Shown: positions 71 through 18,970 of the stretch, one piece after another
How the letters are laid out: each line of letters opens with the position of its first letter
Numbering within the stretch: position 1 is the stretch's first letter
NCBI GenBank assembly: GCA_019753105.1
Contig: JAIELJ010000004.1
Span: 62,001 to 126,000, forward strand
Reading direction: 5' to 3'
From: Hyphomonadaceae bacterium
Lineage (GTDB): Bacteria > Pseudomonadota > Alphaproteobacteria > Caulobacterales > Aquidulcibacteraceae
DNA length: 64,000 nt
Notes under the pieces: generated by a model
What the model was told of the DNA's origin: nothing
Database searches by the model: none
Seen by the model: only the letters and a program-made list of their open reading frames with translations
Translations under genes and position numbers: made by a program

Positions 71-808
71 ATGCCTGCCGGCCAGGTCGCGCTCGACTTC
101 ATCGATTTCTGCGAGAAGCAGACCGATCTCTTGGCGATAGAAAATCGCTTCGTTGCAACGCTCAATGCCCTTGGCTTCGAGCACATCGCCTGCGCGTCGC
201 ACGTCGATCCGCTGCGGCCGCGCCCCGGCGCGGTCAGCATCGTCAATTATCCGATGGCGTGGCTGCAGCAATATTCAGCTGAGAATTTCGCATACATCGA
301 TCCGGTATTTCTCGCCGCGCGCATCATGACCGCGCCTTTCAATTGGGATGAGTGCCTCTCCAAGATGCGCCTCGACCGCGCACAGAAGCGCGTGTTGGCC
401 GAGGGCGCCGCTTATGGATTAACTGGCGGCATAACCATCCCGCTCCGCTCACCCGATGTCATCCCCGCATCGTGTTCGTTGGTCGCTGGCGCTGACGGCG
501 TAGAGCCGCTCGATATGGCGCACACTTTGATGGTCGTCGTCTATGGACATGGCGCCATGCATAGACGGCTCAATCCGAATGCCTTGGTTGATCCGGTCGT
601 GCTGCCTTCACGCGAGCGCCAGTGTCTGGCGCTTGCCGGGCAGGGCAAAAGCGACTGGGCGATAGGCGAACTGCTGGGCATCAACGCCCGCACCGCCCAC
701 AATTCTATTGAGCGCGCCAAGAAGCGTTATGGCGTGTCGCACCGCGTACAAGCGGTCGTGCGCGCCGTGTTCGATGGCCAGATCATGCTCGACGATTTGT
801 CGAACTAA
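71..808 (+). CDS. LuxR-family autoinducer-binding transcriptional regulator
   Basis: Quorum-sensing receptor, 245 aa. The N-terminal half has the autoinducer-binding pattern (W64, Y68, D77-P78, W92 in the order expected for TraR/LuxR), and the C-terminal ~60 residues form a LuxR helix-turn-helix beginning at LPSRERQ. It is expected to bind an acyl-homoserine lactone in the cytoplasm and then DNA. The start at 71 is chosen over an upstream codon at 11 because GGGAGGA sits 4-5 nt before it. It lies 90 bp upstream of the cognate luxI-type gene and heads a same-strand run that continues into the lasso-peptide genes. The family is clear; the ligand is not known. Confidence 0.93.
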   Translation: MPAGQVALDFIDFCEKQTDLLAIENRFVATLNALGFEHIACASHVDPLRPRPGAVSIVNYPMAWLQQYSAENFAYIDPVFLAARIMTAPFNWDECLSKMRLDRAQKRVLAEGAAYGLTGGITIPLRSPDVIPASCSLVAGADGVEPLDMAHTLMVVVYGHGAMHRRLNPNALVDPVVLPSRERQCLALAGQGKSDWAIGELLGINARTAHNSIERAKKRYGVSHRVQAVVRAVFDGQIMLDDLSN

Positions 809-830
809 ATCGATTCGTCGCTTGTCAATG

Positions 831-844
831 GGTCCCACGGGACC
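831..844. promoter_or_regulatory. 14-bp palindrome before luxI gene, candidate lux box
   Basis: A perfect inverted repeat, GGTCCC-AC-GGGACC, lies in the 90-bp gap between the luxR and luxI-type genes, 54 bp before the synthase start codon. Position and symmetry fit a LuxR-type operator giving positive feedback on the synthase. There is no T-tract after it, so a terminator is less likely. No match to a named lux box consensus is claimed. Confidence 0.4.
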
Positions 845-898
845 TGTTACGCCATGCGCTCCAGAGCGGCACCCTCCGCGCAATTGCTCGGAGGCAAC

Positions 899-1528
899 AT
901 GATCTACATCGTCACAGCGGAAAACCGGCGGCGCTTCTATCACTTGCTGACGGAGATGCATCGCCAGCGCAAACAAGTGTTCATCGATCAGCTGAAGTGG
1001 CGGCTCGAGGAGAGCGCAGGGCTGGAGATCGACGCCTATGACAGCGAAGATGCAATCTATCTCATTGAGGCGGCGACGCCACGAGGAGGGATCAGCGTCT
1101 CCGCGCGCCTCTTGCCGACAAATCGTCCGCACTTGCTGAGCGATCAATTCCGCGACCTGTGCGGTGCGGGGCCGCCATCAGGTCCCAATGTGTGGGAAGC
1201 AACTCGGTTTTGCCCCGCACCCGATACGGCATCTGGCGCGCCGCGGCGGATGCTGCTGGGACGCATCATCGCCGGCATCATGGAGACTGCGCTCCTCTTT
1301 GGCATTGATGAGGTGACGTACGTAGCGAGCGCCGCGTTGGCGCCGATGGCCAAAGCAGCGGGATGGCAGGTGCGCGCGCTAGGGGCGGGGCGCGGAAAGG
1401 GCCGCGACAAGATCCAAGCCTTCGCCGCGACGATTGACGCCGATGGGCTGAGACGCGTGCGAGCCAACTTCGATATCAGCGCGCCATTGACACGGTTTGC
1501 GCCGGCCGAGGCGGCGCGTGCGGCTTGA
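899..1528 (+). CDS. Acyl-homoserine-lactone synthase (LuxI family)
   Basis: Makes the N-acyl-homoserine lactone signal from S-adenosylmethionine and an acyl donor. The 209-residue product has all the conserved family positions: R24, F28, W34, acidic residues near 46-51, R70, E100 and R103. The start is fixed by GGAGG five bases before ATG 899; longer versions lack this. It sits directly behind its LuxR partner and 16 bp ahead of a dioxygenase gene, so it probably opens the lasso operon. Whether the donor is acyl-ACP or acyl/aryl-CoA cannot be read from sequence. Confidence 0.93.
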   Translation: MIYIVTAENRRRFYHLLTEMHRQRKQVFIDQLKWRLEESAGLEIDAYDSEDAIYLIEAATPRGGISVSARLLPTNRPHLLSDQFRDLCGAGPPSGPNVWEATRFCPAPDTASGAPRRMLLGRIIAGIMETALLFGIDEVTYVASAALAPMAKAAGWQVRALGAGRGKGRDKIQAFAATIDADGLRRVRANFDISAPLTRFAPAEAARAA

Positions 1529-1544
1529 AATTGTGAAAAGCGTC

Positions 1545-2420
1545 ATGACTCTCATCTCAGCCAATTCCGACGATACGCTCACCGGCGATCTCGACGCCCT
1601 GCACCGCGATGGATTTCTCATTCTCGACGGTTTACTGAACGCGGAGGACCTCCGATCGCTGGCTGACGAGCTTGAGCCTTGGCTTCTGCGCACGCCGCGT
1701 TGCGAAGGCGACTTCCATGGCTGGTCGACAACGCGCGTCAATGGACTTTTGTCCAAGGCGCCGTTGGCGCAGCAACTCGCGCTGCATCCGCGCATCCTTG
1801 CGCTTGCAGAAGCAGCGCTCGCGCCGGCGTGTGATTGCATTCGCCTCAACATGACCCAGGCAATTCGCATTCATCCTGGTCAAAAGGCGCAAGCGCCGCA
1901 CCGCGATGAGGAGATGTGGCCCGCCGATCCGAACGGGCAGGTTTGGTCACTCAATGTGATGTGGGCGATCAGCGATTTTACCGAGGCCAACGGCGCAACG
2001 AGGCTCTGGCCGAGGAGCCACGTTGATCGCCTCGGTCGCGCACCGGATCCAAGCCAGGCGATCCAGGGCGTCATGCGCGCAGGCTCCGCGCTCATCTATC
2101 TTGGTGGGCTCACGCACAGCGGCGGCGCCAACCGATCGGATGGCGACCGCACAGGGCTTGTCATCGGCTATTGCGCTGGATGGTTGCGCACGTACGAGGA
2201 GCAGTTTCTCGCCTATCCGCGACAGGTTGTGCGTGATTTCCCAATCGAGCTGCAGCGCCTCATCGGCTATCGCCATCACCGGCCCAATCTCGGCAATTGG
2301 GAAGGCCAAGATCCGATCGAGTATTTGCACAATGATGCGTCCTGCGGCCCGCATCGCGATGCGCTGCCGCCTGCGATCGCTGCTGAACTGAAGGCGGTGA
2401 TGGCGGCTGCTGCCGATTGA
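1545..2420 (+). CDS. Phytanoyl-CoA dioxygenase (PhyH) family oxygenase
   Basis: A 291-residue Fe(II)/2-oxoglutarate-dependent oxygenase. The iron ligands H119-x-D121 and the distal H191 are present, and R202 in the DRTG segment is placed to hold 2-oxoglutarate. PhyH-type enzymes hydroxylate lipids, amino acids or natural products. ATG 1545 is preferred, but a GTG at 1533 is possible; neither has a strong ribosome site. The gene lies between luxI and the GntR gene with gaps of 16 bp and 1 bp, so co-transcription with the lasso genes is likely. A role in hydroxylating the lasso peptide is inference from position; a small metabolite substrate is the alternative. Confidence 0.82.
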   Translation: MTLISANSDDTLTGDLDALHRDGFLILDGLLNAEDLRSLADELEPWLLRTPRCEGDFHGWSTTRVNGLLSKAPLAQQLALHPRILALAEAALAPACDCIRLNMTQAIRIHPGQKAQAPHRDEEMWPADPNGQVWSLNVMWAISDFTEANGATRLWPRSHVDRLGRAPDPSQAIQGVMRAGSALIYLGGLTHSGGANRSDGDRTGLVIGYCAGWLRTYEEQFLAYPRQVVRDFPIELQRLIGYRHHRPNLGNWEGQDPIEYLHNDASCGPHRDALPPAIAAELKAVMAAAAD

Positions 2421-2421
2421 C

Positions 2422-3045
2422 ATGTCGCCGGAAGCCACCAGCGCCGCGCAGCGCGCATACGAAGAGATCAAGGCGCGTGTGCTCGATGGACGCCTTGCCG
2501 TGCGCAGCCGCATTGACGTGGAGGTGCTGGCGCGCGATCTGGGCGTGAGCTCGATGCCGGTGCGTCAGGCGCTGAGCCTGCTCACCTGGGAACGCCTCGT
2601 ACGACCAGGAAAGCATTCCGCCTATGAGGTAGCGCTGTGGTCCGAAACGGAATTGGCTCATCTCTATGAATGGCGCGGCGCTTTGCTTGCCTTGACGACG
2701 CCCGTTGCAGCCTCGGGCTCGGAACTGAACCGTATTGCTCGCACGCAGGTCTATGCTCAGGCCGTCCATGAGGTCATGCGTCTCATCGAGACTGGCGCCA
2801 ACGCCGAGCTACGTCGCGCTGCGATCAACGCCGACGAACGGTTGTGGGCGGCGCGACAAGTGGAAACCGAGATCTTGGGCGATGCCGAAGCCGAGTTTGC
2901 GACGCTGGTCGCGGCGCTAGCGGAGAGGTCGCGGCGCGCATCAACACTGGTGAAGGCATATACCCGCCGGCGCGTGCGGCACGCTGGGGCGTTGCGCGCC
3001 CATGTCGTCCTAAAGGCCGTTCCGAACAATGGCGCGCACGGCTGA
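2422..3045 (+). CDS. GntR-family transcriptional regulator
   Basis: A 207-residue regulator with a winged helix-turn-helix in residues ~8-75 (AYEEIKARVLDG...ARDLGVSSMPVRQALSLL...), the hallmark of the GntR/FadR group. The C-terminal part is helical and probably a degenerate FCD-type effector domain. It starts one base after the stop of the PhyH gene, so translation is coupled, and ends 93 bp before the first lasso precursor. It is a candidate local repressor or activator of the precursor promoter in that gap. Effector unknown. Confidence 0.85.
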   Translation: MSPEATSAAQRAYEEIKARVLDGRLAVRSRIDVEVLARDLGVSSMPVRQALSLLTWERLVRPGKHSAYEVALWSETELAHLYEWRGALLALTTPVAASGSELNRIARTQVYAQAVHEVMRLIETGANAELRRAAINADERLWAARQVETEILGDAEAEFATLVAALAERSRRASTLVKAYTRRRVRHAGALRAHVVLKAVPNNGAHG

Positions 3046-3138
3046 TCTCTCAACTGATCTTCATATTTATCAATTCGGTGATCAAACAAGAAGGCGCGAT
3101 GCTCTTCCTCGGCCATGAACTGGCCGATGGAGGCAACA

Positions 3139-3258
3139 ATGCGTGAAGATCAAGACGACGTGGTGGAACTGGGCGCAGCGACCGAGAAGACGCTCGGCAT
3201 CTATGACCCGATCCGCAAGGAAAATTTCGTCGACCCAGAAGCGCGCGACCTTCAATAG
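3139..3258 (+). CDS. Lasso peptide precursor 1 (A1)
   Basis: A 39-residue ORF with GGAGG five bases before its ATG. It splits into a 19-residue leader ending in ...ATEKTL and a 20-residue core GIYDPIRKENFVDPEARDLQ. Thr at leader position -2, Gly at core position 1 and Glu at core position 9 are the features needed for leader removal and Gly1-Glu9 macrolactam formation. The leader keeps the family spacing G-x5-T, but the usual Tyr-Pro motif is absent. It precedes a second, similar precursor and the B and C processing genes. Too short for most gene callers. Confidence 0.88.
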   Translation: MREDQDDVVELGAATEKTLGIYDPIRKENFVDPEARDLQ

Positions 3259-3291
3259 CGCGCACTCGGCCACGCAATCAGGAGACGAGAC

Positions 3292-3423
3292 ATGTGTGAA
3301 GAAGAAACCTCGCTGGTCGGTGATGACGTCGGCGAACTCGGCGCCGCGACCGAACGGACGCTGGGTGTGTGGGATCCTCTGCTCAAAGAGACCCACGAGA
3401 CGCCCGAAAGCTTCCCGATGTGA
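3292..3423 (+). CDS. Lasso peptide precursor 2 (A2)
   Basis: A 43-residue ORF preceded by AGGAG seven bases before ATG 3292. The leader is 24 residues and ends ...ATERTL; the core is GVWDPLLKETHETPESFPM (19 residues) with Gly1 and Glu9, so a nine-residue ring is predicted. It shares ELGAATE(K/R)TLG and the ring pattern G-hydrophobic-aromatic-D-P with A1, so the two arose by duplication, while the tails differ completely. It lies 33 bp after A1 and is followed by a strong hairpin and the B gene. Confidence 0.9.
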   Translation: MCEEETSLVGDDVGELGAATERTLGVWDPLLKETHETPESFPM

Positions 3424-3429
3424 ACGCCA

Positions 3430-3459
3430 GACGCGGGCGCGCTCTCGCGCGTCCGCGTC
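3430..3459 (+). terminator. Hairpin between lasso A2 and B genes
   Basis: A 12-bp stem with a single G-U pair (3430-3441 with 3448-3459) and a six-base loop lies wholly in the 51-bp gap between the precursor and the B gene, followed by a short pyrimidine tail (TTCTC). Similar hairpins are known between A and B genes of proteobacterial lasso clusters. It probably stabilises precursor mRNA or lowers read-through, giving more substrate than enzyme. Confidence 0.65.
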
Positions 3460-3474
3460 TTCTCGCAGAACTCC

Positions 3475-4104
3475 ATGTACACACTTACACCCAATGTTCG
3501 CGCCTGTGTTGATCAGAGCGTGGTTGTCTTTCTCGACTTGAGGAACGACCGCTATCTGTCAGTGGACTTGCATCGCGCTCCGGCAATCGTGGGCGTATGC
3601 CAAGGTGCGGGACCCAACGCGGCTGCATCGCTCGTAGCGCGTGGCCTCATAGAGGTGACGCCCGCATACTCCCGCGACGGCGCCGGTCTAATCGCGAGCA
3701 CCGATCCCAACTATTTCCGAAGCTGTCGTGTGAGCCTGTCAGATGTCGTCGCGATGCTTGACGCCTGCGTGCGCGCGTCCATGACGGTTCGCGCGCGAAG
3801 GCTGGATCGGGCATTCCGCACTTTTGCCCGCCGCAAGCGCCTCGCTAAATCAGCCACGATCGAACTCGCCGAAATCGTGGGACGCTTTGAGCGCCTCCGG
3901 CCCTGGTATCCTCGCGCGCGCGTCTGCTTGTTCGACTCGCTGGCGCTCATGAACTTCCTTCTCACTTTCGGCCAGAAGCCCGAGATCGTCATGGGCGTTA
4001 GAGCAACGCCGTTCGCGGCGCATTGCTGGGTCGAGAGTGGCGGCGTGTGCCTCAATGACGCGGCGGAGACTTGCCGGTCTTACACGCCCATCGCTTGGGC
4101 ATGA
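3475..4104 (+). CDS. Lasso peptide B protein (RRE fused to leader peptidase)
   Basis: A 209-residue fused B1-B2 protein. Residues ~1-70 look like the PqqD-like recognition element that holds the leader. Residues ~100-209 form the transglutaminase-like cysteine protease with a visible triad C151 (RVCLFDSL), H183 (FAAHCWVE) and D195 (GVCLNDAA). It removes the leader so that Gly1 of the core is free for cyclisation. It begins 51 bp after precursor 2 and stops 6 bp before the cyclase gene. The fused form is the usual one in Proteobacteria. No strong ribosome site is seen before ATG 3475. Confidence 0.9.
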   Translation: MYTLTPNVRACVDQSVVVFLDLRNDRYLSVDLHRAPAIVGVCQGAGPNAAASLVARGLIEVTPAYSRDGAGLIASTDPNYFRSCRVSLSDVVAMLDACVRASMTVRARRLDRAFRTFARRKRLAKSATIELAEIVGRFERLRPWYPRARVCLFDSLALMNFLLTFGQKPEIVMGVRATPFAAHCWVESGGVCLNDAAETCRSYTPIAWA

Positions 4105-4110
4105 GCGGCC

Positions 4111-5877
4111 ATGCGCTACGTGATCTTCAGATGGACGCCGGCAATGCGCGCCGAAGACCGCACCGCTCGTTCTTTGGCGGCGAGATTGGGCAAGGGGTGG
4201 CGCACCTTGATCGATTGGCGCGGCGTTCTCTTGCTTGTGCGCGAGGATGAGCCGGACATCGTTGAGTTGCCGCACGGAAGTGGCGCGGTGCTCGGCCAGA
4301 TATACGCCGGTTCTGAGGCCGATGCTTCGATTGAGGAGGACAGCGAGGCGAGCGCGGCGTCGTTCGCGGAGCTACGCTGGGGCAGCTACATCGCGATCGT
4401 GATTGACCGCGGGCATGACGTCGTTCGGGTGCTACGGTCTCCAGACGGCGCCCATCCATGCTTCGTGACTGAACACGATCGCGTGCACATCGTTTTTTCG
4501 CAGGCGCGCGATTTTGTTGCAATGAAGCCGGAGGTGGAACCCGACCTGGCATTCCTCGCCGCGTTCCTCGCTTACCCGCGCGTCGTGCTGCGCCGGACCG
4601 CTCTTTGGGGTGTGGAAGAGGTTGCGCCGGGCGAAGCCCTCGTTTTCACCAGAACGTCGCGCAGGATAGAGGCTTATTGGGCGCCTTGGCGCCAGACGCC
4701 CATCGCCGGCTTTGAGGAGGGCGTACACGCGTTGCGTGAGAGCGCCGAGACCGTGGCGTCCGTCGTCTCCCAGCAAGACTGCAAAATCCTGCATCGGCTC
4801 TCGGGCGGTTTTGACTCAACCGCCGTACTTGGATTGCTCGCGCGCACATCGACCTCGGAGCGCATTACCTGCATCAACGAATATTGGTCCGATGCCCCGG
4901 AAGGGGATGAGAGAGACATCGCACGTCTGGTTGCCGGTCAGCATGGCGTTTGTCTTATTGAACTCGGCATGGATCCTGGCCGCGTTCACTATGAGCGAAC
5001 GCTGTCGGCGCCGTTCGGCGTGAAGCCAACGTTATCTGTGTTGAGTTTTGCCGACGCTGAGACACAAGCCGCTTACGCCGACGTAGGCGCTTCGATGCTT
5101 ACATCAGGGCGGGGTGGAGACCACGTTTTTCATCGCAGTCGCACGACGATGATCGCGGCGGACGCCGTGCGCGACGGTCGAGGCGATGTGATGTCTATCG
5201 CGGTCGATGTCGCAAGACTGACGCGCCGATCTGTGTGGGGCGTGTTTCAAGCAATGATCGCCCAAGGCGCGCTCCGATTGCCGGGTCCGGCGCAGCCGCG
5301 TTCGGCTGCAGCGACTATGCTGCAGCCGAACTTTGCTGTTCCCGATCTCGCTGATCATCCCTGGATCGCTGGCGCGCGGAAGGCGCCGCCGGCGCGCGCG
5401 ATGAGGATCGGCCATTTACGTGATGCCCTAAGCTATCACGACATCTCCGCATCCATGGGCCGGATGCGACCCTGGCCCTTACTTCTGTCGCAACCCATTG
5501 TGGATGCGTGCCTGCGCATTGCCCCTTACACGATGACGCATGGCGGAACGGATCGATCGCTCGCGCGCGCGGCGTTTGCAGACCTTATCCCGCCTGTGGT
5601 TCACGCGCGCACTCAAAAGGGGGAGACCACGCGCTATTTCGCGGCGGTCCTGGCCTCCAATCGCGATTGGATTGCGGACGTGCTCACTGGCGGCGAACTC
5701 GCAAATTCCGGCTTGGTCGAACCGGGCAAACTCGAAAACTTGGCGCGGACGGATTGGCGACAAGATGGGTTAGCCGCGGACGGGCTCTATTCTCTCATCG
5801 CGGCGGAGGTGTGGCTGCGCACTCTCAAGGCGTGTAAGCGGGTCAGCGCCGCTCATTGTGAGAGCGCGCCGGTCTGA
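4111..5877 (+). CDS. Lasso peptide cyclase C (asparagine synthetase-like)
   Basis: A 588-residue lasso macrocyclase of the asparagine synthetase B fold. The N-terminal glutaminase-like half lacks the catalytic Cys2 (it starts MRYVIF), as expected. The synthetase half carries the pyrophosphate loop SGGFDS at 231-236. It activates the Glu9 side chain of the core as an acyl-AMP and closes the ring with Gly1, trapping the tail. It starts 6 bp after the B gene and its last 25 bp overlap the end of the convergent isopeptidase gene. Confidence 0.92.
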   Translation: MRYVIFRWTPAMRAEDRTARSLAARLGKGWRTLIDWRGVLLLVREDEPDIVELPHGSGAVLGQIYAGSEADASIEEDSEASAASFAELRWGSYIAIVIDRGHDVVRVLRSPDGAHPCFVTEHDRVHIVFSQARDFVAMKPEVEPDLAFLAAFLAYPRVVLRRTALWGVEEVAPGEALVFTRTSRRIEAYWAPWRQTPIAGFEEGVHALRESAETVASVVSQQDCKILHRLSGGFDSTAVLGLLARTSTSERITCINEYWSDAPEGDERDIARLVAGQHGVCLIELGMDPGRVHYERTLSAPFGVKPTLSVLSFADAETQAAYADVGASMLTSGRGGDHVFHRSRTTMIAADAVRDGRGDVMSIAVDVARLTRRSVWGVFQAMIAQGALRLPGPAQPRSAAATMLQPNFAVPDLADHPWIAGARKAPPARAMRIGHLRDALSYHDISASMGRMRPWPLLLSQPIVDACLRIAPYTMTHGGTDRSLARAAFADLIPPVVHARTQKGETTRYFAAVLASNRDWIADVLTGGELANSGLVEPGKLENLARTDWRQDGLAADGLYSLIAAEVWLRTLKACKRVSAAHCESAPV

Positions 5878-7880
5878 CGCGCGCGCAGGGCGCGCCATCG
5901 TTCGATCCGGCCGGGCTCGTTAGCATCGTGCCGCTCGACGCCAGCCAGCCAGAAATCGATCCAGGCTAACGCGCGTTCCTGCGCCATCAATTGATGCTGG
6001 GGCCGCCATTTCACGTGGTACTCGCCCGGATAGATGTAGATCTCACTGACGCGGCCAAGTTCGCGCAATCGGACCGAGAGCGGAAACCCTGTCAGGGCTT
6101 CGTTGTCGGACAGGTTCATCAGAAGCGGCGTACGGATATTCTCCGTGTGATAAATGGTAGCGTTTTCCCGCCACCAAGACGCCCACGGTTCGGGCGTATC
6201 TCCCCAAGGGCCTTCAGCGCCGACGTCTCGATTCGATTGCCGAAAAGTTTCGGCGTTCAGCGGATAGCCGGATGGGTCGACGGGCGGGCTGCTGGAAACT
6301 GCTGCAGCGAAAAGGCGGGTCTGTGAAATCATCCAGAACACCGTCTCAGCGCCGTCGCTGAGGCCGGTAATGGCAATGCGTGAAGGATCGACGATGTTGC
6401 GCGCGCCAATCTGCCGGAGAAGGCGCTCCAGCTGAGTCTGCTTCATCCGTAGTTCTGATCCGTCCAGTTCTGCGACGAGCTGCGATTGAGCCGCCGGCAA
6501 GCGGACCAACAAATCCTGGTTGTCAGTGCGATCGACGCTCAGGACAAAATAGCCGCGCGCTGCAAGCGCATGGATGGGATACTCGCCGCCAACGCCGCCG
6601 CGCAGAAAGCCGCGCGAGCGATATTGCACGACAACCATGGGATAGAGGCGCCCGGCCTGATAGTCGCGGGGCCAGACGAGATGCGCGAAGCCTTGGTTGC
6701 CGTAGGCGTCGTCGGCATCGAGGCGCTCAACGCGCGTGATTGGAAACGCGGACCAGTTTGGATTCGGGTCATAGATCGGGGAGATATCGCCAGAACTCAG
6801 GGACACGGTGACAAGCCGGCGCGGCTGCGACGGGCTTTCGTGCAAGCACACGAGGGCATCGCGCGCGAGCTCGCAATCGAGCAACACTTCGTCCGCGCGG
6901 CGCAGAAGCCGTATCGTGTCGGCGCTGGCGTCCCATACATAGAGCGCGTAGTCCGCGAACCCATGCCCCTCACGCCGCTGAAAGACAATCTCGTCGTGAT
7001 TGGCAATCCAAACCCCCGACATCCGACCGCTGCACTCAGAATGCTCGCAGCGCATGGCGTCCGCGTCGCGCCGCGTCAGGGTGAGTGCAAGCGCGGGAAG
7101 CGTTGCTGGGTCTCCGGGCGTGGCGGGCGCGATGCTGGCGCGTAAGTCACCGGCCTCGTCAGCCGCCACTTGCCCGCTTGGTGCGCCAAAGCCGGTCGCG
7201 GGTAGGAGGGCCTGCGCATCGGCTTCGGTTGCGTCACGCAGCTTTCGACCGTTGGTGTTTATGACGATCGCAGATCGCCCGTCGCGTAGATTCGGATAGG
7301 GGAAGAGGTTGTAGCGCGGTTCGAAATTGTCGTCGGCAAAGAAGCCCAGCCGGCGCTGGCGCTCCGACTGCGCGTTGAGCACTGACCTTGCGGGATAGAG
7401 TTCGACAACAATCTCGTTCGGGCTGAGCCAGGCAAACCTCGCTACATCGCGCTCGCCACCGACGAGGCGACGGTTGGCGCGTCCGTTCGGGCGGATGCGC
7501 CAGAGTTCGATGCCATCGCCGTGGCGCGCAATGTAGGAAATCCACGACCCGTCAGGAGACCAAGCAGGAATTCTGTCGTCGATTGCGCCGCTGTACCGCC
7601 CCGTCGCCGTGCGCAGCACAGCGTCCCCCCCATCGGCAATTGCGCTGGCCTCGCCGCCTGCGGCAGGGATGACCATGAGCGTATATTGATAGCGATCGGC
7701 CTCGATGAGCGTATCGCGCGTGAACACGGCGACCTGGCGTCCGTCTGGTGAGACAGACAATCCAGACTGAAAGCCGCCGACCTCCCGAAGCGAAAGGATG
7801 TCGGTGATGTCCGGCGCCTGAGCGTTGGCGGCGCACGGCGCCAGCAAGAAAGCGCCGATCGCGATGAGCGTTCTCACCAT
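5853..7880 (-). CDS. Lasso peptide isopeptidase (S9 prolyl-oligopeptidase fold, AtxE2-like)
   Basis: Predicted 675-residue enzyme with a signal peptide (MVRTLIAIGAFLLAPCAANAQA), a WD/beta-propeller-like region and a C-terminal alpha/beta-hydrolase domain. The nucleophile is S508 in GLSDG, with E594 (LSDNE) and H622 (GEYHVKW); the 28-residue Glu-to-His spacing matches what I recall for AtxE2. Such enzymes hydrolyse the Gly1-Glu isopeptide bond and linearise imported lasso peptides. ATG 7880 overlaps the end of the receptor gene by 7 bp, so the two are coupled. It converges on the cyclase gene with a 25-bp overlap. A generic S9 peptidase is possible, but the context argues for the lasso role. 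Confidence 0.85.
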   Translation of the reverse strand: MVRTLIAIGAFLLAPCAANAQAPDITDILSLREVGGFQSGLSVSPDGRQVAVFTRDTLIEADRYQYTLMVIPAAGGEASAIADGGDAVLRTATGRYSGAIDDRIPAWSPDGSWISYIARHGDGIELWRIRPNGRANRRLVGGERDVARFAWLSPNEIVVELYPARSVLNAQSERQRRLGFFADDNFEPRYNLFPYPNLRDGRSAIVINTNGRKLRDATEADAQALLPATGFGAPSGQVAADEAGDLRASIAPATPGDPATLPALALTLTRRDADAMRCEHSECSGRMSGVWIANHDEIVFQRREGHGFADYALYVWDASADTIRLLRRADEVLLDCELARDALVCLHESPSQPRRLVTVSLSSGDISPIYDPNPNWSAFPITRVERLDADDAYGNQGFAHLVWPRDYQAGRLYPMVVVQYRSRGFLRGGVGGEYPIHALAARGYFVLSVDRTDNQDLLVRLPAAQSQLVAELDGSELRMKQTQLERLLRQIGARNIVDPSRIAITGLSDGAETVFWMISQTRLFAAAVSSSPPVDPSGYPLNAETFRQSNRDVGAEGPWGDTPEPWASWWRENATIYHTENIRTPLLMNLSDNEALTGFPLSVRLRELGRVSEIYIYPGEYHVKWRPQHQLMAQERALAWIDFWLAGVERHDANEPGRIERWRALRARQTGALSQ

Positions 7881-10837
7881 CGCTGTGACACCTGGAACAT
7901 CACCACACGGCCAAGCGGCGAGGCATTCAGCGTGTCGAAGGCAAGACCTGACGAATTGTTGACGAACGGCGGGTCCTCGTCGGTGAGGTTGCGAATGTCG
8001 AGCGCAAATTCGGTCCAAGAGTCATCGGTACGCCGCCACCTGTAGGAAAGTCGTGCATCATAGGTCAGCCAGGAATCGATCGCGCGGTTCGGCGTACTGA
8101 GATTGTCGCGATAGCCATCGACATAGTTGGCGACCAATGCGCCTCCCCAACCATTGTTGTTGAGCGAGATGCCAGCGCGAGCACGAAGATCAACCGGATT
8201 AAACACGGTGTCGAGCAGCTCGACCGTCGGCAGAGCGGGGTTCGTGCTCCGCGAAAATTCGAGCAGCTTGCTTGCGCTGGCAAAGAGTGACGCCTCGCCG
8301 AACGAGGTGTCGAAGGCGTAACTGGCGCTGAAATCTATGCCGCGGACCTGAAGCGAGCCCAGATTGGTAAGGCGCTCATCCCAAATCGCTTCGATGCCGT
8401 CGGGCGGAACCGCGCCCACGACCTGGTCGACTTGTCCCAAATAGTCAGCGATCTGCTGCGCTGTGGGATTGAAGATTAGATAGCCCACATAGTTCTGCGG
8501 ATTGCGGAAGGCATCGAGCAGATTGCCTGGAGTGGCGATGCGGTTCGCGAAATCGATATCGAAGTATGTCGCCGAGACGCGGAGGCCTTCGGCCCACCCT
8601 GGAGAGTAATCAAAACCGATCGTCCAGGTTTCGGCTTCCTCGGGCTGCAATTGCCGATTGGAGCCAAGCACTTGGAGCAGGCCTGTTGTGCCGTTGGTGG
8701 CGTTGGGATCAATCGATGGCGGCACGGCCTGAATGAGGCCCGCCGTCCCGGTCAGCATCTGCGTGAATTGCGGCGCCTTGAAAGACGTGCCCCATGTCCC
8801 GCGGAACGCCAGATCGTCGAACACATCCCAATGCACGCCGATTTTCGGCGTGGTGGCCGAGCCGAAGTCGGAAGACTCCTCGTAGCGGATCGAAAGGGAG
8901 AGCGTCAGCGCATCGACGAGCGGAATGTTCATGTCCTCGCCGATGATTGGCGCAAGCAATTCGCCAAAGTAGGCGTTGGTCTCGCGCCGCCCGGGGTCTT
9001 GCACGCGCGGCGACGTCACAAGCCCGGCCGCGGAGATCCTGATTTGGTTAGCCGAGAAGGTTTCGCGCCTGTGCTCGGCGCCGACAGCGGCGCGCACTAT
9101 CCCGCCGGGCAATTCAAAGAGCCGTCCATCCGCCTTGAGCGCGTAGGTCACGAGTTCGGAATCGGTGTCTACGAACTGGCTGTTGGTGAGGCCGGCGAGC
9201 ACGGATGCGGGCGTGTTGCCGCCGTCACTGAACGGGTTGAAGGCGGTGGCTTGGCTGGAGCTGGCGAGGGCTAAGTTCAGCGCCGGAAGATCGAGCGCAT
9301 TGCGCGTGTCGTTCTCATCGGCATGCGCCCCATAGGCGACCATCGCTTCCAGGCGCCAGTCAGCGAAGAGCGCGACATCCAGGCCTGTCGCCGCCGCCCA
9401 GGTGCGCGATGACGTATCAATCTGGAGCGGTCCGAGATCGTCGCCAAAATAATAGCCCATGGCGAGCGGACCTTGGCCGGTGAAAAGGCCGTTGCTTTGC
9501 CGATAGAAGTTCGTCGCAGGCACAGAGATAATGGTGTTCGTCTGCGGTCGCTCGGCGTAGCCGCTCCGCTCGGACGTCAACACATCGAGGAAGAGTTCAA
9601 CATCCGGGGTCAGGTCCTGGCGCAAGGACAGGAAGCCGGAATGGCTTTCCTGTTCGGGCAAGAGGAAATTGTCTTCTTGCGTGTTCTGGAGGTTGAGTTG
9701 ACCCGGAAGGAGGTCGGCGACGGTGAGGTTCGTGCCGTCCTGGCCGGATGGAATGCCGAAACTGACCGGCGTCGCGCCGACGCGGATGATGTTTCCCGGA
9801 TTAGCGTTGGTGCGCGAGAAGTTGGTCCCGCCATAGCGCCGAAGATCGGAATCGGCGGCGAAGGACCGCTCCGATGAAGAGAGCGAGTCGCGTTGGCGAT
9901 AATCGTAGCCTGCAATAATTGAACCCGTCGACCACGTCTCGGCCCAAGTCTGCGAGAAGCCGAGTTCGTCGAACCCATCGGCGCCGCCATAGCGTACGAC
10001 CGTTTCCGCGCCTTCAAGGTCGCGGCGAAGAATGATGTTCACGACGCCGCCGACAGCGTCTGCGCCATAGGTTGCCGAGGCGCCGTCGGCTAAAATCTCA
10101 ACCCGCTCGATGGCTGCGATCGGGACGGCGCTGATATCGACAAAGTTGCCGAGGCCAGCGGGCGCGAGCCTGCGGCCATTGAGCAAAGTGAGTGTCGCGT
10201 CCGATCCCAAACCACGCAGGTCAACGCTCGAACCGAGCGCTAGATTACGATTTGGCGCGTTGGAATTGAGCTGTGTGAGTTCGCTTTGGCTGCCAGTATA
10301 AACTTGCGGCATCACCTGCAGCACGTCCTGAAGCGTCGTGCGGCCGCTCTCTTCGATGTCCTCGCGGTTGAGCCCCATCACGTTCGAACCGGCGGGCGGC
10401 GCGCCGCGGATGCGCGTGCCGGTGACGATAATTTCTTCGTCGGTCTCAGTCGCCGCGTACTGGGGGCGGGCGGCTGGCTCCAGCCGAACGATCCGATCGC
10501 CGACGATTTCGATACGCGGCGCCCCATCGGGTAGAAGCGCCGCCAAAGCGGCCTCAGGCGTGAGCCGTCCATGCACTGGACGCGAGGCCATGCCTGTCAC
10601 GTCTCCTTGAGAGAACAAGATTTGCAGCCCGGACTGCTCAGCGAATCGCACGAGCGCGGATGAAAGCGGCTGCTCAGGGATATCGTAGTCACGTTCCGTC
10701 GACTGAGCGCGCGCGCCCGCGTCGGCGGATTGGGCCAGAGCGGGCGTTGCCAAAGCGATTGCTGATACCGAAGCAAGCGCAATAGCCAAAAGCGTACGCA
10801 CACCGTCGCGGCGCGGCTGCGGCGAAATATTCGTCAT
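7874..10837 (-). CDS. TonB-dependent receptor with STN signalling domain
   Basis: A 987-residue outer-membrane receptor. It has a signal peptide ending ATPALA, an STN (secretin/TonB N-terminal) domain at ~48-118, a TonB box (EEIIVTGTR), a plug domain and a long beta-barrel ending in a C-terminal aromatic residue (SQRW). The start follows an AGGGGG ribosome site. The STN domain means the receptor can signal to an anti-sigma FecR when ligand binds. Its coupling to the isopeptidase gene points to uptake of the lasso peptide. The sigma/FecR pair at 17.1-18.6 kb is the likely partner in this window. Confidence 0.92.
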   Translation of the reverse strand: MTNISPQPRRDGVRTLLAIALASVSAIALATPALAQSADAGARAQSTERDYDIPEQPLSSALVRFAEQSGLQILFSQGDVTGMASRPVHGRLTPEAALAALLPDGAPRIEIVGDRIVRLEPAARPQYAATETDEEIIVTGTRIRGAPPAGSNVMGLNREDIEESGRTTLQDVLQVMPQVYTGSQSELTQLNSNAPNRNLALGSSVDLRGLGSDATLTLLNGRRLAPAGLGNFVDISAVPIAAIERVEILADGASATYGADAVGGVVNIILRRDLEGAETVVRYGGADGFDELGFSQTWAETWSTGSIIAGYDYRQRDSLSSSERSFAADSDLRRYGGTNFSRTNANPGNIIRVGATPVSFGIPSGQDGTNLTVADLLPGQLNLQNTQEDNFLLPEQESHSGFLSLRQDLTPDVELFLDVLTSERSGYAERPQTNTIISVPATNFYRQSNGLFTGQGPLAMGYYFGDDLGPLQIDTSSRTWAAATGLDVALFADWRLEAMVAYGAHADENDTRNALDLPALNLALASSSQATAFNPFSDGGNTPASVLAGLTNSQFVDTDSELVTYALKADGRLFELPGGIVRAAVGAEHRRETFSANQIRISAAGLVTSPRVQDPGRRETNAYFGELLAPIIGEDMNIPLVDALTLSLSIRYEESSDFGSATTPKIGVHWDVFDDLAFRGTWGTSFKAPQFTQMLTGTAGLIQAVPPSIDPNATNGTTGLLQVLGSNRQLQPEEAETWTIGFDYSPGWAEGLRVSATYFDIDFANRIATPGNLLDAFRNPQNYVGYLIFNPTAQQIADYLGQVDQVVGAVPPDGIEAIWDERLTNLGSLQVRGIDFSASYAFDTSFGEASLFASASKLLEFSRSTNPALPTVELLDTVFNPVDLRARAGISLNNNGWGGALVANYVDGYRDNLSTPNRAIDSWLTYDARLSYRWRRTDDSWTEFALDIRNLTDEDPPFVNNSSGLAFDTLNASPLGRVVMFQVSQRW

Positions 10838-10889: not shown

Positions 10890-11189
10890 ATGGAAGCCCA
10901 ATTTAGCAGGCGGGGCGTAAATTTCGTTCGGCCGGACGAAGTGTTGGCGCTGCGCCCGATAAGGCTTGTGAGCGACCCCTTGCGCGCATCAGCGCCTAAA
11001 GCTGTGCGGAACGCGATGCATACTGGTCTTGCTGCTTATCGGGGGCTTTGCCTGCGTGTTGTGGGCTCGCGCGAGGTGTTTGGCTTCGCGGGCCTCGCCG
11101 TTGTCGCAGCGGTCTTGCTCGCGTTCATGCTGGGATATGGGCTTTGGGCCTTTGTCGGCGAGGACATGGCTATCGTTTTCATCCTCTAG
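10890..11189 (+). CDS. Small predicted membrane protein
   Basis: A 99-residue ORF with one clear hydrophobic helix near the C-terminus (FAGLAVVAAVLLAFMLGYGLW). ATG 10890 has GGGAGAG six bases upstream; an earlier in-frame ATG at 10863 has no such site. It is divergent from the TonB receptor with only ~50 bp between them, so the promoters would be shared. No family is recognised. Confidence 0.4.
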   Translation: MEAQFSRRGVNFVRPDEVLALRPIRLVSDPLRASAPKAVRNAMHTGLAAYRGLCLRVVGSREVFGFAGLAVVAAVLLAFMLGYGLWAFVGEDMAIVFIL

Positions 11190-11318
11190 GCGCTGTCAGC
11201 GGCAATAGCGACCATGGCGATTTTTGCGGCGCTCGGCGCGGGCCTTCGGCCGGGGTGGAATGCGCTGCGCTGACTTTGGGGCGGCAGGTGTGTTTCAGTC
11301 AGCGTGCGGCGAGCACGT

Positions 11319-11663
11319 CTATGCGTTGTCGAAAACCAAGCCTGCCGCGCCGTCGCGCTGCCACATCACACGAGCTCGATGCTTGAGGCGCAGCGTGGAC
11401 TCTACCAGAACCACGCAGTGCGGCAGCTCGCGCCGAACAAAAAACTCGATCAGTGCGCCGCGCTCGCTCACGTTCTTGATGACGACAGAAAACCTTTCAC
11501 CGCCGGCGAAGATGAGCGTGCCTTGCCTGAACACAGGTTGCCGCGCAGAGCGCGCGGTTTGAGCAGGCGCGAGAGCAGTGCCGGGAGAGGGGCGCTCGAC
11601 GGCTCGCCGCATCCTCTCGGCCAACCGGCCGGGCGCTTGCGGAGGATTACCTTTCCCGAACAT
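11319..11663 (-). CDS. PilZ-domain protein
   Basis: A 114-residue protein whose C-terminal ~75 residues read as a PilZ domain: an R-rich start (RSARQPVFRQG), a NVSERGALIEF segment matching the (D/N)xSxxG motif, and the alternating beta pattern to the end. PilZ domains bind cyclic di-GMP, here probably as a single-domain effector. The start at 11663 overlaps the end of the preceding gene by 17 bp. The first arginine box is not canonical, so c-di-GMP binding is not certain. Confidence 0.65.
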   Translation of the reverse strand: MFGKGNPPQAPGRLAERMRRAVERPSPGTALAPAQTARSARQPVFRQGTLIFAGGERFSVVIKNVSERGALIEFFVRRELPHCVVLVESTLRLKHRARVMWQRDGAAGLVFDNA

Positions 11664-12099
11664 GGCGCCGATCTTCCGGATGCTTGCATGTGTGGTCGAT
11701 GCGCAGTTTTTCGACGAAGCCCGAGCGCGAAGCCGCAGCTGCGATTTCATCGCCCGCGAAAAGGCCGCCGAGACCTTCGATGGACGCCGCCAGAAACACT
11801 TCCGTGGCTTGTCCGTCGCGTGAATGCCGTTCGCGTAGCCAATATTCGACGCTGCGAGAAGCCTGCGACGAACGGCATACCCAGCCAGAGCGGCGGAGCA
11901 TGAAGAAGTCAATGCTTTGGTGAAGCTTCCGGTAGTGCGCGCGCAAGGCGTCGAGTTGCGCATGCGTGATCTGGGAGAGATCGACGCCGTCGGCGACAAT
12001 GTGAAAGGTGTCGGCGCCAGCCCATGCGAGGTTCTCCGCATGCGCGCGTCCGAGGTCTTGCAACTCGGAGACGGTCACGGCGCCCGTGAACTCGATCAC
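11647..12099 (-). CDS. Conserved hypothetical, SpoIIAA/STAS-like
   Basis: A 150-residue protein starting at a GTG. The N-terminal pattern (FTGAVTVSEL...HIVADGVDLSQIT) resembles the strand-helix layout of SpoIIAA/STAS-like proteins; this is a weak call. The frame is overlapped at its 3' end by the PilZ gene, so the two form a pair. It is divergent from the response regulator at 12395, with ~295 bp between them in which I see no other gene. Its function is unknown, but pairing with PilZ suggests a signalling role. Confidence 0.55.
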   Translation of the reverse strand: MIEFTGAVTVSELQDLGRAHAENLAWAGADTFHIVADGVDLSQITHAQLDALRAHYRKLHQSIDFFMLRRSGWVCRSSQASRSVEYWLRERHSRDGQATEVFLAASIEGLGGLFAGDEIAAAASRSGFVEKLRIDHTCKHPEDRRHVRER

Positions 12100-12394
12100 A
12101 TGCAGCGCCAGACCAGCATTTATGGAAAGGGTAATGGGCAGCGGCGTAACCGTGAAAACCAGCGCGCGCTCCAGAGCGCGACCCAGGAGCCGCCCAGTCC
12201 TATCAGCAAATGTGCTGCGGAGGCGTTAGCGCGACGGCCAGTCCGCAGCAAACCGCGCATGCTCGCAGGAAGCTTCGCAAACAATCTCGCAGAATGCTCG
12301 CAGTGATCGGCGCTGCCGCGAAAAGCATGAGCTTTAAGCCTTCCTTGAGGGCGCGCGCGTCAAGCCTGCCAGCAATTGATACAAGGTGGCCTGC

Positions 12395-12847
12395 ATGCAA
12401 ATTCTCGTCGTCGACGATGACGCTCTCATCACGCTCATGGTGAGCGAAGGTTTGAAGCTGCAGGGGTATGAGGTCGCCATCGCCGAGAACGGTGCGACGG
12501 CGTTGGCCGCTGTGCGCAAACGGCGTCCGGCGCTCATGTTACTGGACGCCGAAATGCCGGTGATGGATGGGTTCGCGGTACTGAAGGCGCTGAAGGCAGA
12601 GCCGGCGCTGAACCATGTGCCCGTGATTATGCTGACAGCGCGCCGGAACGCGCGCGACGTGATGTTGGCGCGTGGTCTCGGCGCGTGCGACTATCTTGCC
12701 AAGCCGTTCGACATCCTTGATCTGTTGCAGCGGGTAAAGACCTGGGCCGGCAAGCGCCCCGGCGTCGGAAGCCCAGCGCGTTCGGGTGAGACGAGTTTGG
12801 TATTTGGCGATGCAAGTCCCGACGCCGCGCAATGGTTCGTGGAGTGA
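12395..12847 (+). CDS. Single-domain response regulator (REC)
   Basis: A 150-residue protein made of one receiver domain. The acidic pocket (VVDDD), phospho-acceptor D51 (LLDAEMP), the conserved Thr (MLTARR) and Lys (LAKPFD) are all present, and no output domain follows. ATG 12395 is preferred over a GTG at 12386 because AAGG lies 8 bp before it. It is followed by a terminator and then the hybrid kinase, with which it probably exchanges phosphate. Confidence 0.88.
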   Translation: MQILVVDDDALITLMVSEGLKLQGYEVAIAENGATALAAVRKRRPALMLLDAEMPVMDGFAVLKALKAEPALNHVPVIMLTARRNARDVMLARGLGACDYLAKPFDILDLLQRVKTWAGKRPGVGSPARSGETSLVFGDASPDAAQWFVE

Positions 12848-12874
12848 AACGGGAGCCGATGGTCTCCCGTTTTC
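12847..12874 (+). terminator. Rho-independent terminator after REC gene
   Basis: A nine-base inverted repeat (AAACGGGAG / CTCCCGTTT) with an eight-base loop starts inside the stop codon of the receiver gene and ends in TTTT. It separates that gene from the hybrid kinase. Confidence 0.8.
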
Positions 12875-12907
12875 CCGGCGTCGAAAGATTCGCGGGGGGC
12901 CGCCCTG

Positions 12908-16081: not shown

Positions 16082-16088
16082 AAAAAGA

Positions 16089-17123: not shown

Positions 17124-18095
17124 CTAGAGCGTCGCCGTCGAACTCAGCAGGATCTCGTCATCGCGCTGCTCGGCGTTGACGGCGAGGTTGTCGCGCAGAA
17201 GGTCGAGGAACGCGTCAAGATCGTCCGCGCGCACCAAGCCGCCGACCCGTAGATCTGCGAGCGCCGGGTCGGCGAAGACAAAGCGCACGCCGCTCTGGCG
17301 CGTCACGTCCGCCACCGCCTCAGAGAGCGGGGTGTTGTCGAAGGCGAGCATGCCTTCGCGCCAGAGCGTACGGCGCGCGAGTTGCTCCGCGGTGGAAGCG
17401 TCAACGGCCACGTTTTCGCGGCCAATGACGATCTCGCTATTCACGCCCGCCGCAATTGGGGATGTTTGTCCGATCCATGTGCGCCGCGAGGCGCGCGCCC
17501 CGTCCGACAGCAATGCGACGCGCGCGCCCTCTGGAAGCAACTTCACCAGGATCTCGCCGCCAGCGGCCTCGATTTCTCCTGATGGCGTGGCGATCGAAAA
17601 CACGCCGGCGCTGCTCGCCGCGATCGTAAAGAGCGCTTCGCCCGCCAAGAGCCGCGCTTCGCGCCGATCAGCGCGTATGCGCGCCTGAAGCCGCGAACTC
17701 GCGTTCAGCAACACCCGCGTGCCATCGGCCAGATCGACTTCGCGCCGTTCGCCGACGCCGGTCTCAAACGCCTCGGCGGGTCCGCCTGAGAAGGTGACGT
17801 AACTGCCGACCCCGACCACCAATGCGCCCACGCCGAGACTGGCGGCAAACGCTGTGCGACGGCTCAACGAGTGCGGAGCGTCATCAGCTGTCAGATCGAA
17901 GGCGTCGAGACGCGCCAGCAAATCCATCTGGTTCCAGGCGCGGCTGGCGAGTTGAAACGCGGCGCGGTGATCCTCGGATTTGGCAAGCCAACGGCGAAAG
18001 GCGGCGACATCGCGGGCGTCAAACTCGACGCCATCGAACCTGACCACCCAATCGGCGGCCTCACGTCCGATCCGCTTCTCCCGTGGGCTGGTCAT
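17124..18095 (-). CDS. FecR-family anti-sigma factor
   Basis: A 323-residue FecR-like regulator: N-terminal DUF4880 segment (AADWVVRFDGVEF), one transmembrane helix at ~105-125, a periplasmic FecR domain, and a C-terminal STN-like DUF4974 segment (DNTPLSEAVADVTRQSGVRF). It holds the sigma factor until an outer-membrane receptor with an STN domain signals. ATG 18095 overlaps the sigma gene by 35 bp, so the two are coupled. No receptor gene follows; the nearest STN-bearing receptor in the window is the lasso receptor at 7.9-10.8 kb. Confidence 0.9.
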   Translation of the reverse strand: MTSPREKRIGREAADWVVRFDGVEFDARDVAAFRRWLAKSEDHRAAFQLASRAWNQMDLLARLDAFDLTADDAPHSLSRRTAFAASLGVGALVVGVGSYVTFSGGPAEAFETGVGERREVDLADGTRVLLNASSRLQARIRADRREARLLAGEALFTIAASSAGVFSIATPSGEIEAAGGEILVKLLPEGARVALLSDGARASRRTWIGQTSPIAAGVNSEIVIGRENVAVDASTAEQLARRTLWREGMLAFDNTPLSEAVADVTRQSGVRFVFADPALADLRVGGLVRADDLDAFLDLLRDNLAVNAEQRDDEILLSSTATL

Positions 18096-18618
18096 TGCTT
18101 TTCTCGCCCGTCCCGGCTCGTTCGAAGGCCTGCAGCGCCGCCGCGCATTTAGCAAGCGCGCGCGAGAGATAGCGCGGCACGCTGTGGCGGGGAATGCCGA
18201 GCCGTTTGCCGACCTCTTCGTGGCTGAGGCCTTTCAGCTTGAACAAGACCACTGCCAGCCGCTCCTTGCGTGGCAATTGCAGAAACGCGCCCGTGACATG
18301 GGCGAAGCGCTCGCCCTCGATCAGCATCTCTTCGGGCGTCAGCACGGTCTCAGAGCCCAGCCGCTCAAGCCGCTCTTCACTGACGGACGCGACCCCTGCG
18401 CGTGATTGGCGCCGCAGTTCGTCGACTGCCAGATTTTGCGTGAGGCGGGCCAAGTAAGCCCGCGGGTCTTCGACTTCGGAGACATCAATCTCCAGCATTT
18501 TGGTGAAGGCGGCCTGGACAACATCCTCGGCGGCGATGCGCCCGCGGAAGCGCCGCAGCCTTCGCAGCAGACGCGGGCCCTCGGAGGCGAAGAGGCGGGC
18601 GAGGTCAGCCGGCGTCAC
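18061..18618 (-). CDS. ECF sigma factor (FecI-like)
   Basis: A 185-residue ECF sigma factor with region 2 (EDVVQAAFTKMLE, DPRAYLARLTQNLAVDELRR) and region 4 (LPRKERLAVVLFKLKGLSHEEVGKRLG...). Start at GTG 18618 is chosen because GGGAGG lies eight bases upstream; longer frames lack this and run into the previous gene. It overlaps the upstream gene by 14 bp and the FecR gene by 35 bp, giving a three-gene coupled unit. It should activate genes for receptor-mediated import when FecR is triggered. Confidence 0.9.
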   Translation of the reverse strand: MTPADLARLFASEGPRLLRRLRRFRGRIAAEDVVQAAFTKMLEIDVSEVEDPRAYLARLTQNLAVDELRRQSRAGVASVSEERLERLGSETVLTPEEMLIEGERFAHVTGAFLQLPRKERLAVVLFKLKGLSHEEVGKRLGIPRHSVPRYLSRALAKCAAALQAFERAGTGEKSNDQPTGEADRT

Positions 18619-18970
18619 GGCAGGCCTCCCGAAGTTCCGTGAGCCGATCCACCAGCTGATCCAGCTCGCTGACATGCAAGCTCTCGATCAGACCGAGAGC
18701 ATAAGGCGGCTCACCCTGTTCATAGACCACCGCACCCCAGATGAAGTCGCCCTCGGAGATCATTGTTGCGAGAGCGGTGTGATCGCTGGGGGACGCATCA
18801 TTGGCACATCGGAGAATGGCGAGGCGAGTAGGGGAGAGAGCGATCACAAGGTCGTTCGCGTTCCCGGAGTCCCAAACGCGCGCGACAACCCGTAGCGCTG
18901 TATCCGCAAGTCGGGCTTCCAACCTACGTGCCGTGCTAGAAGCCAGATCTTCGGTTTCAGCGGTTCGCAC
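18605..18970 (-). CDS. Hypothetical protein, first gene of the ECF sigma unit
   Basis: A 121-residue soluble protein read from GTG 18970. No family is recognised. The sequence is mostly helical with a beta-rich middle (DLVIALSPTRLAILRC, GDFIWGAVVYEQG). It overlaps the sigma gene and begins only three bases from a 19-bp palindrome, so its expression is probably controlled by the divergent XRE protein. It could set the level of the sigma factor or act as a sensor; this is speculation from position. Confidence 0.6.
   Translation of the reverse strand: MRTAETEDLASSTARRLEARLADTALRVVARVWDSGNANDLVIALSPTRLAILRCANDASPSDHTALATMISEGDFIWGAVVYEQGEPPYALGLIESLHVSELDQLVDRLTELREACRDAG

Follow-up and report, generated by a model that had tools for sequence, protein, structure and literature searches.

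What isopeptidase-type lasso peptides do in nature has, to our knowledge, not been established. Published descriptions of the clusters encoding them list a gntR gene before the precursor, the genes A-B-C, an isopeptidase, a TonB receptor and a sigma/anti-sigma pair (PMC9266682). Lasso-peptide gene expression is called poorly understood in another paper, which suggests for capistruin of Burkholderia thailandensis an indirect, negative effect of N-acyl-homoserine lactones (AHLs) via the global regulator ScmR (PMC6963729). Here, we analyzed a stretch of 64,000 nucleotides (the window) from a Hyphomonadaceae bacterium, starting at base 62001 of its contig (JAIELJ010000004.1) in a genome of 3.87 Mb, in which a lasso cluster of the isopeptidase type stands directly behind luxR, luxI and phyH.

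The window shares gntR-A-B-C, the isopeptidase, the receptor and the sigma/anti-sigma pair with the benenodin, astexin, subterisin and sphingocin clusters (PMC9266682; sphingocin, PMC11006600), but it differs from them by a complete luxR-luxI-phyH ahead and by a 6.2-kb insertion that breaks the receptor/fecR linkage. These three leading genes have the same identity and order as a module of sphingomonads, in which phyH is reported to adjoin luxI in Novosphingobium and others (PMC3704786, PMC4288048); neither main text uses the word "lasso". One LuxI listed in that literature, Lpl262 of Novosphingobium sp. PP1Y, belongs to a luxI-phyH pair that forms part of a lasso unit on plasmid Lpl. The luxR-luxI-phyH module was already known. 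In the capistruin system, AHLs are likewise thought to touch lasso expression, as we propose here, but no luxI figures in the description of capABCD (PMC6963729). Among the papers listed from the open-access library searched (subscription papers lay mostly outside the search), none describes a luxI in a lasso cluster, judged by titles and abstract openings. An earlier note on this DNA had stated that no characterized lasso cluster is known to carry its own luxR/luxI, and nothing contrary was found there; the claim has to be read beside plasmid pCHQ1 of Sphingobium indicum UT26S, where luxI-phyH without an annotated luxR (L232 5904-7438) lies ~12 kb from a benenodin-type cluster.

Gene content and order in the window

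The genes luxR, luxI, phyH, gntR, A1, A2, B and C occupy positions 71-5877 on the + strand with successive intergenic gaps of 90, 16, 1, 93, 33, 51 and 6 bp, and the order, single strand and 1- to 93-bp gaps given in the earlier note proved exact to the base. Convergent to them, 3′ of C, are the genes for an AtxE2-type isopeptidase and then a TonB receptor, both on the - strand.

The lasso genes were assigned by family matches. B, a B2 protease, matched NF033537 (E 2.9e-20), C is an Asn-synthase-like cyclase (Asn_synthase, E 2.2e-19), the isopeptidase exceeded the NF033523 cut-off, and the gntR product matched Pfam GntR (E 1.9e-10). The gntR gene lies 5′ of the precursors, and the sigma/anti-sigma pair is found at 17124-18675, beyond the insertion. 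In the TonB receptor, the plug starts at residue 153 and the STN match reached 17.8 bits, below the cut-off of 28.4. All matches of the precursors to curated lasso families were below cut-off (Table 1), with A1 at E 0.0031 and A2 without a match for the benenodin family. In both precursors the leader contains the motif ELGAATE(K/R)T, and the core opens with G-IYDPIRK-E (A1) or G-VWDPLLK-E (A2), from Gly1 to Glu9; many relatives show a matching leader/core pattern at the equivalent position. Thr at -2 of the leader together with Gly1 and Glu/Asp at 7-9, all found here, is the rule that we assume to identify a lasso precursor. On these features, the cluster is classified as an AtxE2-type lasso-peptide unit with a predicted threaded product.

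LuxR matched Autoind_bind (E 2.8e-24) and GerE (E 9.8e-9), and LuxI matched Autoind_synth (E 1.4e-25); their nearest curated models are TraR and TraI. In an alignment of 11 sequences, R24, F28, W34, D45, D48, R70, E100 and R103 of LuxI were invariant, eight positions that we take to be the key or catalytic residues. Both proteins look intact by sequence. The phyH gene follows luxI directly on the same strand, as in the sphingomonad module, and its product matched Pfam PhyH (E 2.1e-27), with the HxD motif read within PHRDEE.

Table 1. Features of the lasso locus in the window
Feature	Position	Strand	Basis
luxR (autoinducer-binding and GerE helix-turn-helix)	71..808	+	Pfam; nearest curated model TraR
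lux-box-like imperfect palindrome AATGGGTCCCACGGGACCTGTT	827..848	+	begins 72 bp 5′ of luxI ATG; matrix score
luxI (AHL synthase)	899..1528	+	Pfam; invariant key residues
phyH, Fe(II)/2-oxoglutarate dioxygenase, luxI-linked type	1545..2420	+	Pfam; matches dioxygenases of known structure
gntR-type regulator	2422..3045	+	Pfam
lasso precursor A1, core GIYDPIRKENFVDPEARDLQ	3139..3258	+	Subterisin 2.3e-5, below cut-off
lasso precursor A2, core GVWDPLLKETHETPESFPM	3292..3423	+	Subterisin 0.0079, below cut-off
hairpin between A2 and B	3429..3460	+	dG -30 for 3424-3474
lasso B, B2 protease	3475..4104	+	NF033537 across residues 88-207; N-terminal part unmatched
lasso C macrolactam cyclase	4111..5877	+	Asn_synthase
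AtxE2-type lasso isopeptidase	5853..7880	-	NF033523 566 bits, cut-off 400; AtxE2 structure 5txc 2e-83
TonB-dependent receptor: N-terminal part with weak STN match, plug, barrel	7874..10837	-	
FecR (anti-sigma) of lasso unit	17124..18155	-	Pfam FecR 1.1e-14; 89% to sister cluster's FecR
ECF-type (extracytoplasmic function) sigma factor of lasso unit	18061..18675	-	Pfam sigma-70 regions 2 and 4

The 6.2-kb insertion (10909-17124), which parts the receptor from fecR and sigma and is missing from the sister cluster L066, carries, on the opposite strand, genes for a hybrid histidine kinase and two response regulators. The hairpin between A and B was considered as a conserved shared control element and discarded, z falling below -2 in only 7 of 24 clusters (mean -1.1).

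Recurrence of the luxI-lasso pairing

The window's own genome has 3 luxI and 3 isopeptidase genes above cut-off, paired 5.0-6.3 kb apart. In its order, counted on one locus set from which the many named loci on the same contigs were left out, 43 isopeptidases exceeded the cut-off in 29 of 299 genomes, and 29 of the 43 had a luxI within 9 kb, although one of these luxI probably belongs to a neighboring cluster. For 7 of the remaining 14 isopeptidases, the contig ends on the luxI side, and in 3 of these 7 phyH is the outermost gene found. The pairing, on whose conservation in related genomes the earlier note had made its reading depend, is thus conserved. On the luxI side, the order yielded 113 matches in 84 of 299 genomes; lasso B or C lay in the fetched stretch at 42 of the 109 loci inspected (the other 4 matches were low scoring), and some of the 67 loci lacking lasso genes stop at contig edges. 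By luxI family, the lasso-linked fractions were 25/53 (f1), 13/31 (f2), 4/8 (f5), 0/10 (f3) and 0/7 (f4). Outside the order, lasso genes stood beside none of the 20 luxI loci read, out of 67 luxI matches. An even, class-wide draw was uninformative, with isopeptidases in 2 of 385 genomes including that of the window; in the order of the second genome, the count was 1/5.

The gene arrangements (ARRANGEMENTS) differ between families. In f1, luxR-luxI-phyH-gntR-A-B-C converges on isopeptidase-receptor(-fecR-sigma), and luxI, phyH, gntR, B and C are co-oriented in the 25 f1 clusters (B is uncalled in L051, and luxR lies beyond the stretch in L068). In f5, luxR-luxI-phyH diverges from gntR-A-B-C, and in f2 it diverges from a TPR/LicD gene plus A-B-C. 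The only genes recurring at f2 loci are luxR, luxI, phyH, the TPR/LicD gene, B, C, the isopeptidase and the receptor (8-13 of 13), any other family being present in at most 4 of 13. All 13 f2 clusters have this TPR/LicD-type gene (L142 6372-7811 and relatives), placed between luxR and the lasso genes, and no other locus examined has it.

The pairing is also found on plasmids of Sphingomonadales. Novosphingobium sp. PP1Y, Sphingopyxis indica, Blastomonas sp. RAC04 and Novosphingobium sp. ES2-1 carry luxR-luxI-phyH-gntR with lasso genes, in the layout luxR-luxI-phyH-gntR-sigma-fecR-receptor-isopeptidase convergent with C-B-A (a HEPN gene follows gntR in PP1Y); relative to f1, the block after gntR is inverted. 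In Novosphingobium sp. THN1, judged by coordinates only, luxI lies ~8 kb from C. Overall, of 32 plasmid records in which a C-like match was found, at least 5 have the pairing, two plasmid lasso clusters showed no luxI in the stretch examined, and among four other plasmid luxI regions inspected, lasso genes were present in S. indica only. An idea taken from luxI-less clusters, that luxRI substitutes for the sigma/anti-sigma pair, was rejected, as many luxI clusters, the window included, have FecR and sigma. For sphingomonads, these data name lasso genes as a possible target of the luxR-luxI-phyH modules, whose published descriptions do not mention such genes.

Linked clusters also occur in a complete Hyphomonadaceae chromosome (CP096134.1), which bears two (L084 and L088; the L084 receptor and the L088 cyclase each read as two open reading frames), in the isolates Marinicaulis flavus (L099) and Aquisalinus luteolus (L102), and in a Terricaulis sp. 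genome (L087). L051 and L087, with a fragmented cyclase and no B found, and L083 and L122, with the isopeptidase in two pieces, are apparently decayed, and luxR-luxI-phyH is still open in them. In genome G122 (L109), a second, truncated unit (sigma-fecR-receptor-isopeptidase and a cyclase remnant) lies near the first.

Lasso-linked LuxI sequences were scattered over separate parts of the LuxI tree, and forcing them into one clade was rejected by the approximately unbiased test (p-AU 2.8e-54), with groups that had been named after the first tree was viewed and with long branches present. The first tree had 17 contig-edge rows labeled apart, and the second consisted of 69 hand-chosen rows. Since the lasso-linked LuxI do not form one clade, the link has probably arisen, or been re-established, on more than one occasion.

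Co-divergence and exchange of the lasso genes

Pairwise distances were compared in 28 clusters, 24 of them f1 and near-copies included, with n of 10-24 per correlation. Within f1, LuxI distances tracked those of LuxR (0.78), PhyH (0.82) and GntR (0.72), as well as those of the mobile genes ParB (0.82, n=14), relaxase (0.77, n=10), TraF (0.67, n=15) and ArdC (0.47). The correlation of LuxI with the lasso genes was weak (B 0.27 and C 0.24, n=24 for both; isopeptidase 0.29, receptor 0.36; p ≤0.0025), whereas C tracked B (0.88), isopeptidase (0.91) and receptor (0.91), and GntR at 0.35. The receptor was split in this respect: its residues 1-160 tracked LuxI (0.58-0.65), and the remainder tracked C (0.52-0.85).

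Individual pairs showed the same division. Clusters with LuxI 92-99% identical can differ to 23-36% identity in B and C. In L061/L045, LuxI (96%), receptor residues 1-160 (84%) and FecR (85%) are alike, and B, C, isopeptidase and receptor barrel are only 23-38% identical; in L064/L070, LuxI (65%) and receptor residues 1-160 (37%) differ, and B, C, isopeptidase and the receptor beyond residue 160 are 84-94% identical. At fixed thresholds, 15 pairs shared the head with a different cassette, 7 shared both, and 4 shared the cassette with a different head, these being non-independent pairs among the 28 clusters. The receptor identity of L064/L070 leaps from 32% to 100% between blocks 121 and 161, near the plug start; in other pairs the drop is more gradual. 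Against its closest sister, L066, the window is 85% identical in DNA over a segment that begins upstream, includes gntR and reaches base 3198, where the local alignment stops, near the A1 leader/core border, and similarity resumes in the receptor N-terminal part (67%), followed by fecR (89%) and sigma. GntR shows identities in between, at 42-73% for seven pairs with a common head and 89% for L064/L070, which places the left breakpoint at varying points around gntR. A block test did not support the idea that the GntR C-terminal domain moves with the lasso enzymes.

These comparisons indicated that the precursor(s), B, C, the isopeptidase and the receptor plug and barrel behave as an exchangeable cassette. 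By the same comparisons, the receptor is chimeric: the N-terminal part groups with the quorum-sensing side, and plug and barrel group with the lasso enzymes. The frame would consist of luxR-luxI-phyH (variably gntR) on the left and the receptor N-terminal signaling part, fecR and sigma on the right. This suggests that density-linked peptide production moves as a modular, mobile unit. We tentatively propose, with a little less than even confidence, that a mobile quorum-sensing frame swaps lasso "key and lock" blocks (precursor, synthases, isopeptidase and receptor barrel), so that a constant AHL circuit and a constant N-terminal/FecR/sigma part would drive changing private peptide/receptor systems, like effectors behind fixed secretion genes. 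Exchange and the chimeric receptor lead to the prediction that the barrel recognizes the peptide of its own cluster, with the N-terminal part serving in signaling alone.

The flanks on the luxR side of the 25 f1 clusters, in a tally that drew on overlapping named loci, held ParB, ArdC, TraF, Toprim or relaxase genes in 16, VirB4 in 7 and neither in 2. Immediately 5′ of the window's luxR are relaxase, TraF, SSB, Toprim, ArdC and ParB genes (L034 1558-9779), ParB and ArdC being above their Pfam cut-offs and relaxase just below (23.7 vs 24.6). At five f1 clusters (L036, L051, L054, L055 and L122), two tandem luxR adjoin VirB4, resembling the sphingomonad "topology T" luxR-luxR-luxI-phyH-X-virB. 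At L096 and L177, mobilization genes and luxR-luxI-phyH-gntR have no lasso genes behind them, which reads as an empty or lost cassette.

Control of the cluster and competing explanations

A lux-box-like palindrome, imperfect and a predicted site, stands upstream of luxI in the window (Table 1). Its leave-one-out score was 22.4 versus 10.5 for the next-best place in the window, and 19.8 versus 10.2 with the closest sister's site also left out, by a matrix built from the palindrome sites of these loci themselves; the same matrix scored at best 1.0 in the 10 kb of mobilization genes upstream of luxR. It also matches L034, L036, L064 and L073, and more weakly L069 and L071. At 18 of 25 f1 and 4 of 4 f5 loci, the top-ranked palindrome in front of luxI has its start 72-83 bp from that gene, and its halves vary jointly between loci. 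With a lux-box-like palindrome standing out 72 bp before luxI in the window, luxI and the genes that follow it are likely to be under AHL control.

We favor the reading that the AtxE2-type lasso unit is under AHL quorum sensing and consists of a regulatory frame enclosing an exchangeable cassette. At high density, LuxR-AHL would bind the predicted site and raise luxI-phyH-gntR, and read-through would probably extend to A1-A2-B-C in the f1 layout, so that the lasso peptide would be produced when producers are crowded. GntR would add local control of the precursors, the receptor would re-import the peptide and the isopeptidase open it, and the receptor N-terminal part, FecR and sigma may report peptide uptake. 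PhyH would most likely modify the AHL or its acyl precursor. The conserved circuit makes AHL a candidate inducer for silent clusters, both in isolates (M. flavus and A. luteolus) and on plasmids.

Several results weigh against this reading. The matrix scores derive from the loci's own sites, and a plain palindrome test ranks another palindrome first in the window (at -26) and in L073, 22-26 bp before luxI; as the window's site was not first-ranked in that test, our confidence was set slightly lower, though it stays somewhat better than even. The test gave p > 0.05 in L036, L064, L069, L071 and L112, most f2 loci had no significant palindrome, and three plasmid loci tested gave p 0.39-0.77. A second palindrome near the precursors was sought by own-box scans of 31 loci (two of them duplicates from genomes that were already included), and the only match had 5 mismatches (L182, ~0.5 kb upstream of B); at f5 and f2 loci, these scans showed no clear second site between the diverging luxR-luxI-phyH and the lasso genes. 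The divergent orientation itself in f5 and f2, and the four sphingomonad plasmids, in which gntR is followed by sigma-fecR-receptor-isopeptidase and precursor-B-C are at the far end, mean that read-through into the precursors is not a general rule; coupling through GntR or sigma may be the general rule instead. In the window, the 93-bp gap 5′ of A1 leaves space for a separate promoter, and LuxI co-diverges better with mobile genes than with lasso genes. The operon and co-regulation proposed in the earlier note gain from the conserved pairing, the intact LuxI and LuxR and the lasso-side palindrome, and lose from the layouts of f5, f2 and the plasmids, which lack precursor-B-C downstream of luxI. 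That note had also overlooked that phyH belongs with the quorum-sensing pair, that gntR is standard in isopeptidase clusters and that the quorum-sensing genes co-diverge with mobile genes.

The chief rival, supported by this co-divergence, is that the quorum-sensing pair is part of the mobile element and sets the timing of its transfer, the lasso genes being adjacent cargo. TraI and TraR time the transfer of Ti plasmids; as the best curated models, they are likewise an AHL pair beside transfer genes. The mobilization or VirB4 genes flanking luxR in f1 fit such a role, and on plasmid Lpl of PP1Y the lasso unit sits between traG and trb genes. Unlike in TraI/TraR, however, the palindrome and gene order of the window point to the lasso side (luxI-phyH-gntR-A-B-C), no comparable site was found in the 10 kb of mobilization genes upstream, and the lasso cassette is found repeatedly behind the frame despite repeated exchange. 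Moreover, the pairing persists at f2 loci with variable flanks, where a search for six mobilization genes found none. We regard transfer timing with mere cargo as unlikely, though it deserves weight, and both controls may be true. The combined version, in which AHL coordinates element transfer together with lasso production and the peptide serves the element, e.g., by favoring carriers, appears slightly less unlikely. It would account for both the mobile-gene co-divergence and the lasso-side palindrome, and copies of the box with 3 mismatches lie on the fecR/sigma side in L048 (3636), L055 (17889), L059 (5630) and L070 (3364). Such a copy is absent there in the window, whose mobilization genes have no palindrome, and the type IV secretion genes detected on its contig (VirB4/TraG, at 138-143 kb) are ~75-80 kb from luxI.

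Density control of the lasso peptide, our preferred reading, assigns PhyH to the signal. A role of PhyH as tailoring hydroxylase of the lasso peptide would explain the luxI-phyH linkage in another way, and an Fe/2-oxoglutarate hydroxylase acting on a lasso peptide, CanE, is known from a title cited in PMC9266682; but PhyH distances track LuxI, PhyH blocks correlate with C at only 0.11-0.38, luxI-phyH also occurs in stretches devoid of lasso genes (18 kb at L166, for example), and PMC3704786 reports luxI-phyH in sphingomonads, which make this role improbable. Many of the relatives are draft metagenome genomes, and chance or an assembly artifact could be suspected, yet the two clusters of the complete chromosome CP096134.1, the complete plasmids and the isolates M. 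flavus and A. luteolus refute this explanation almost entirely.

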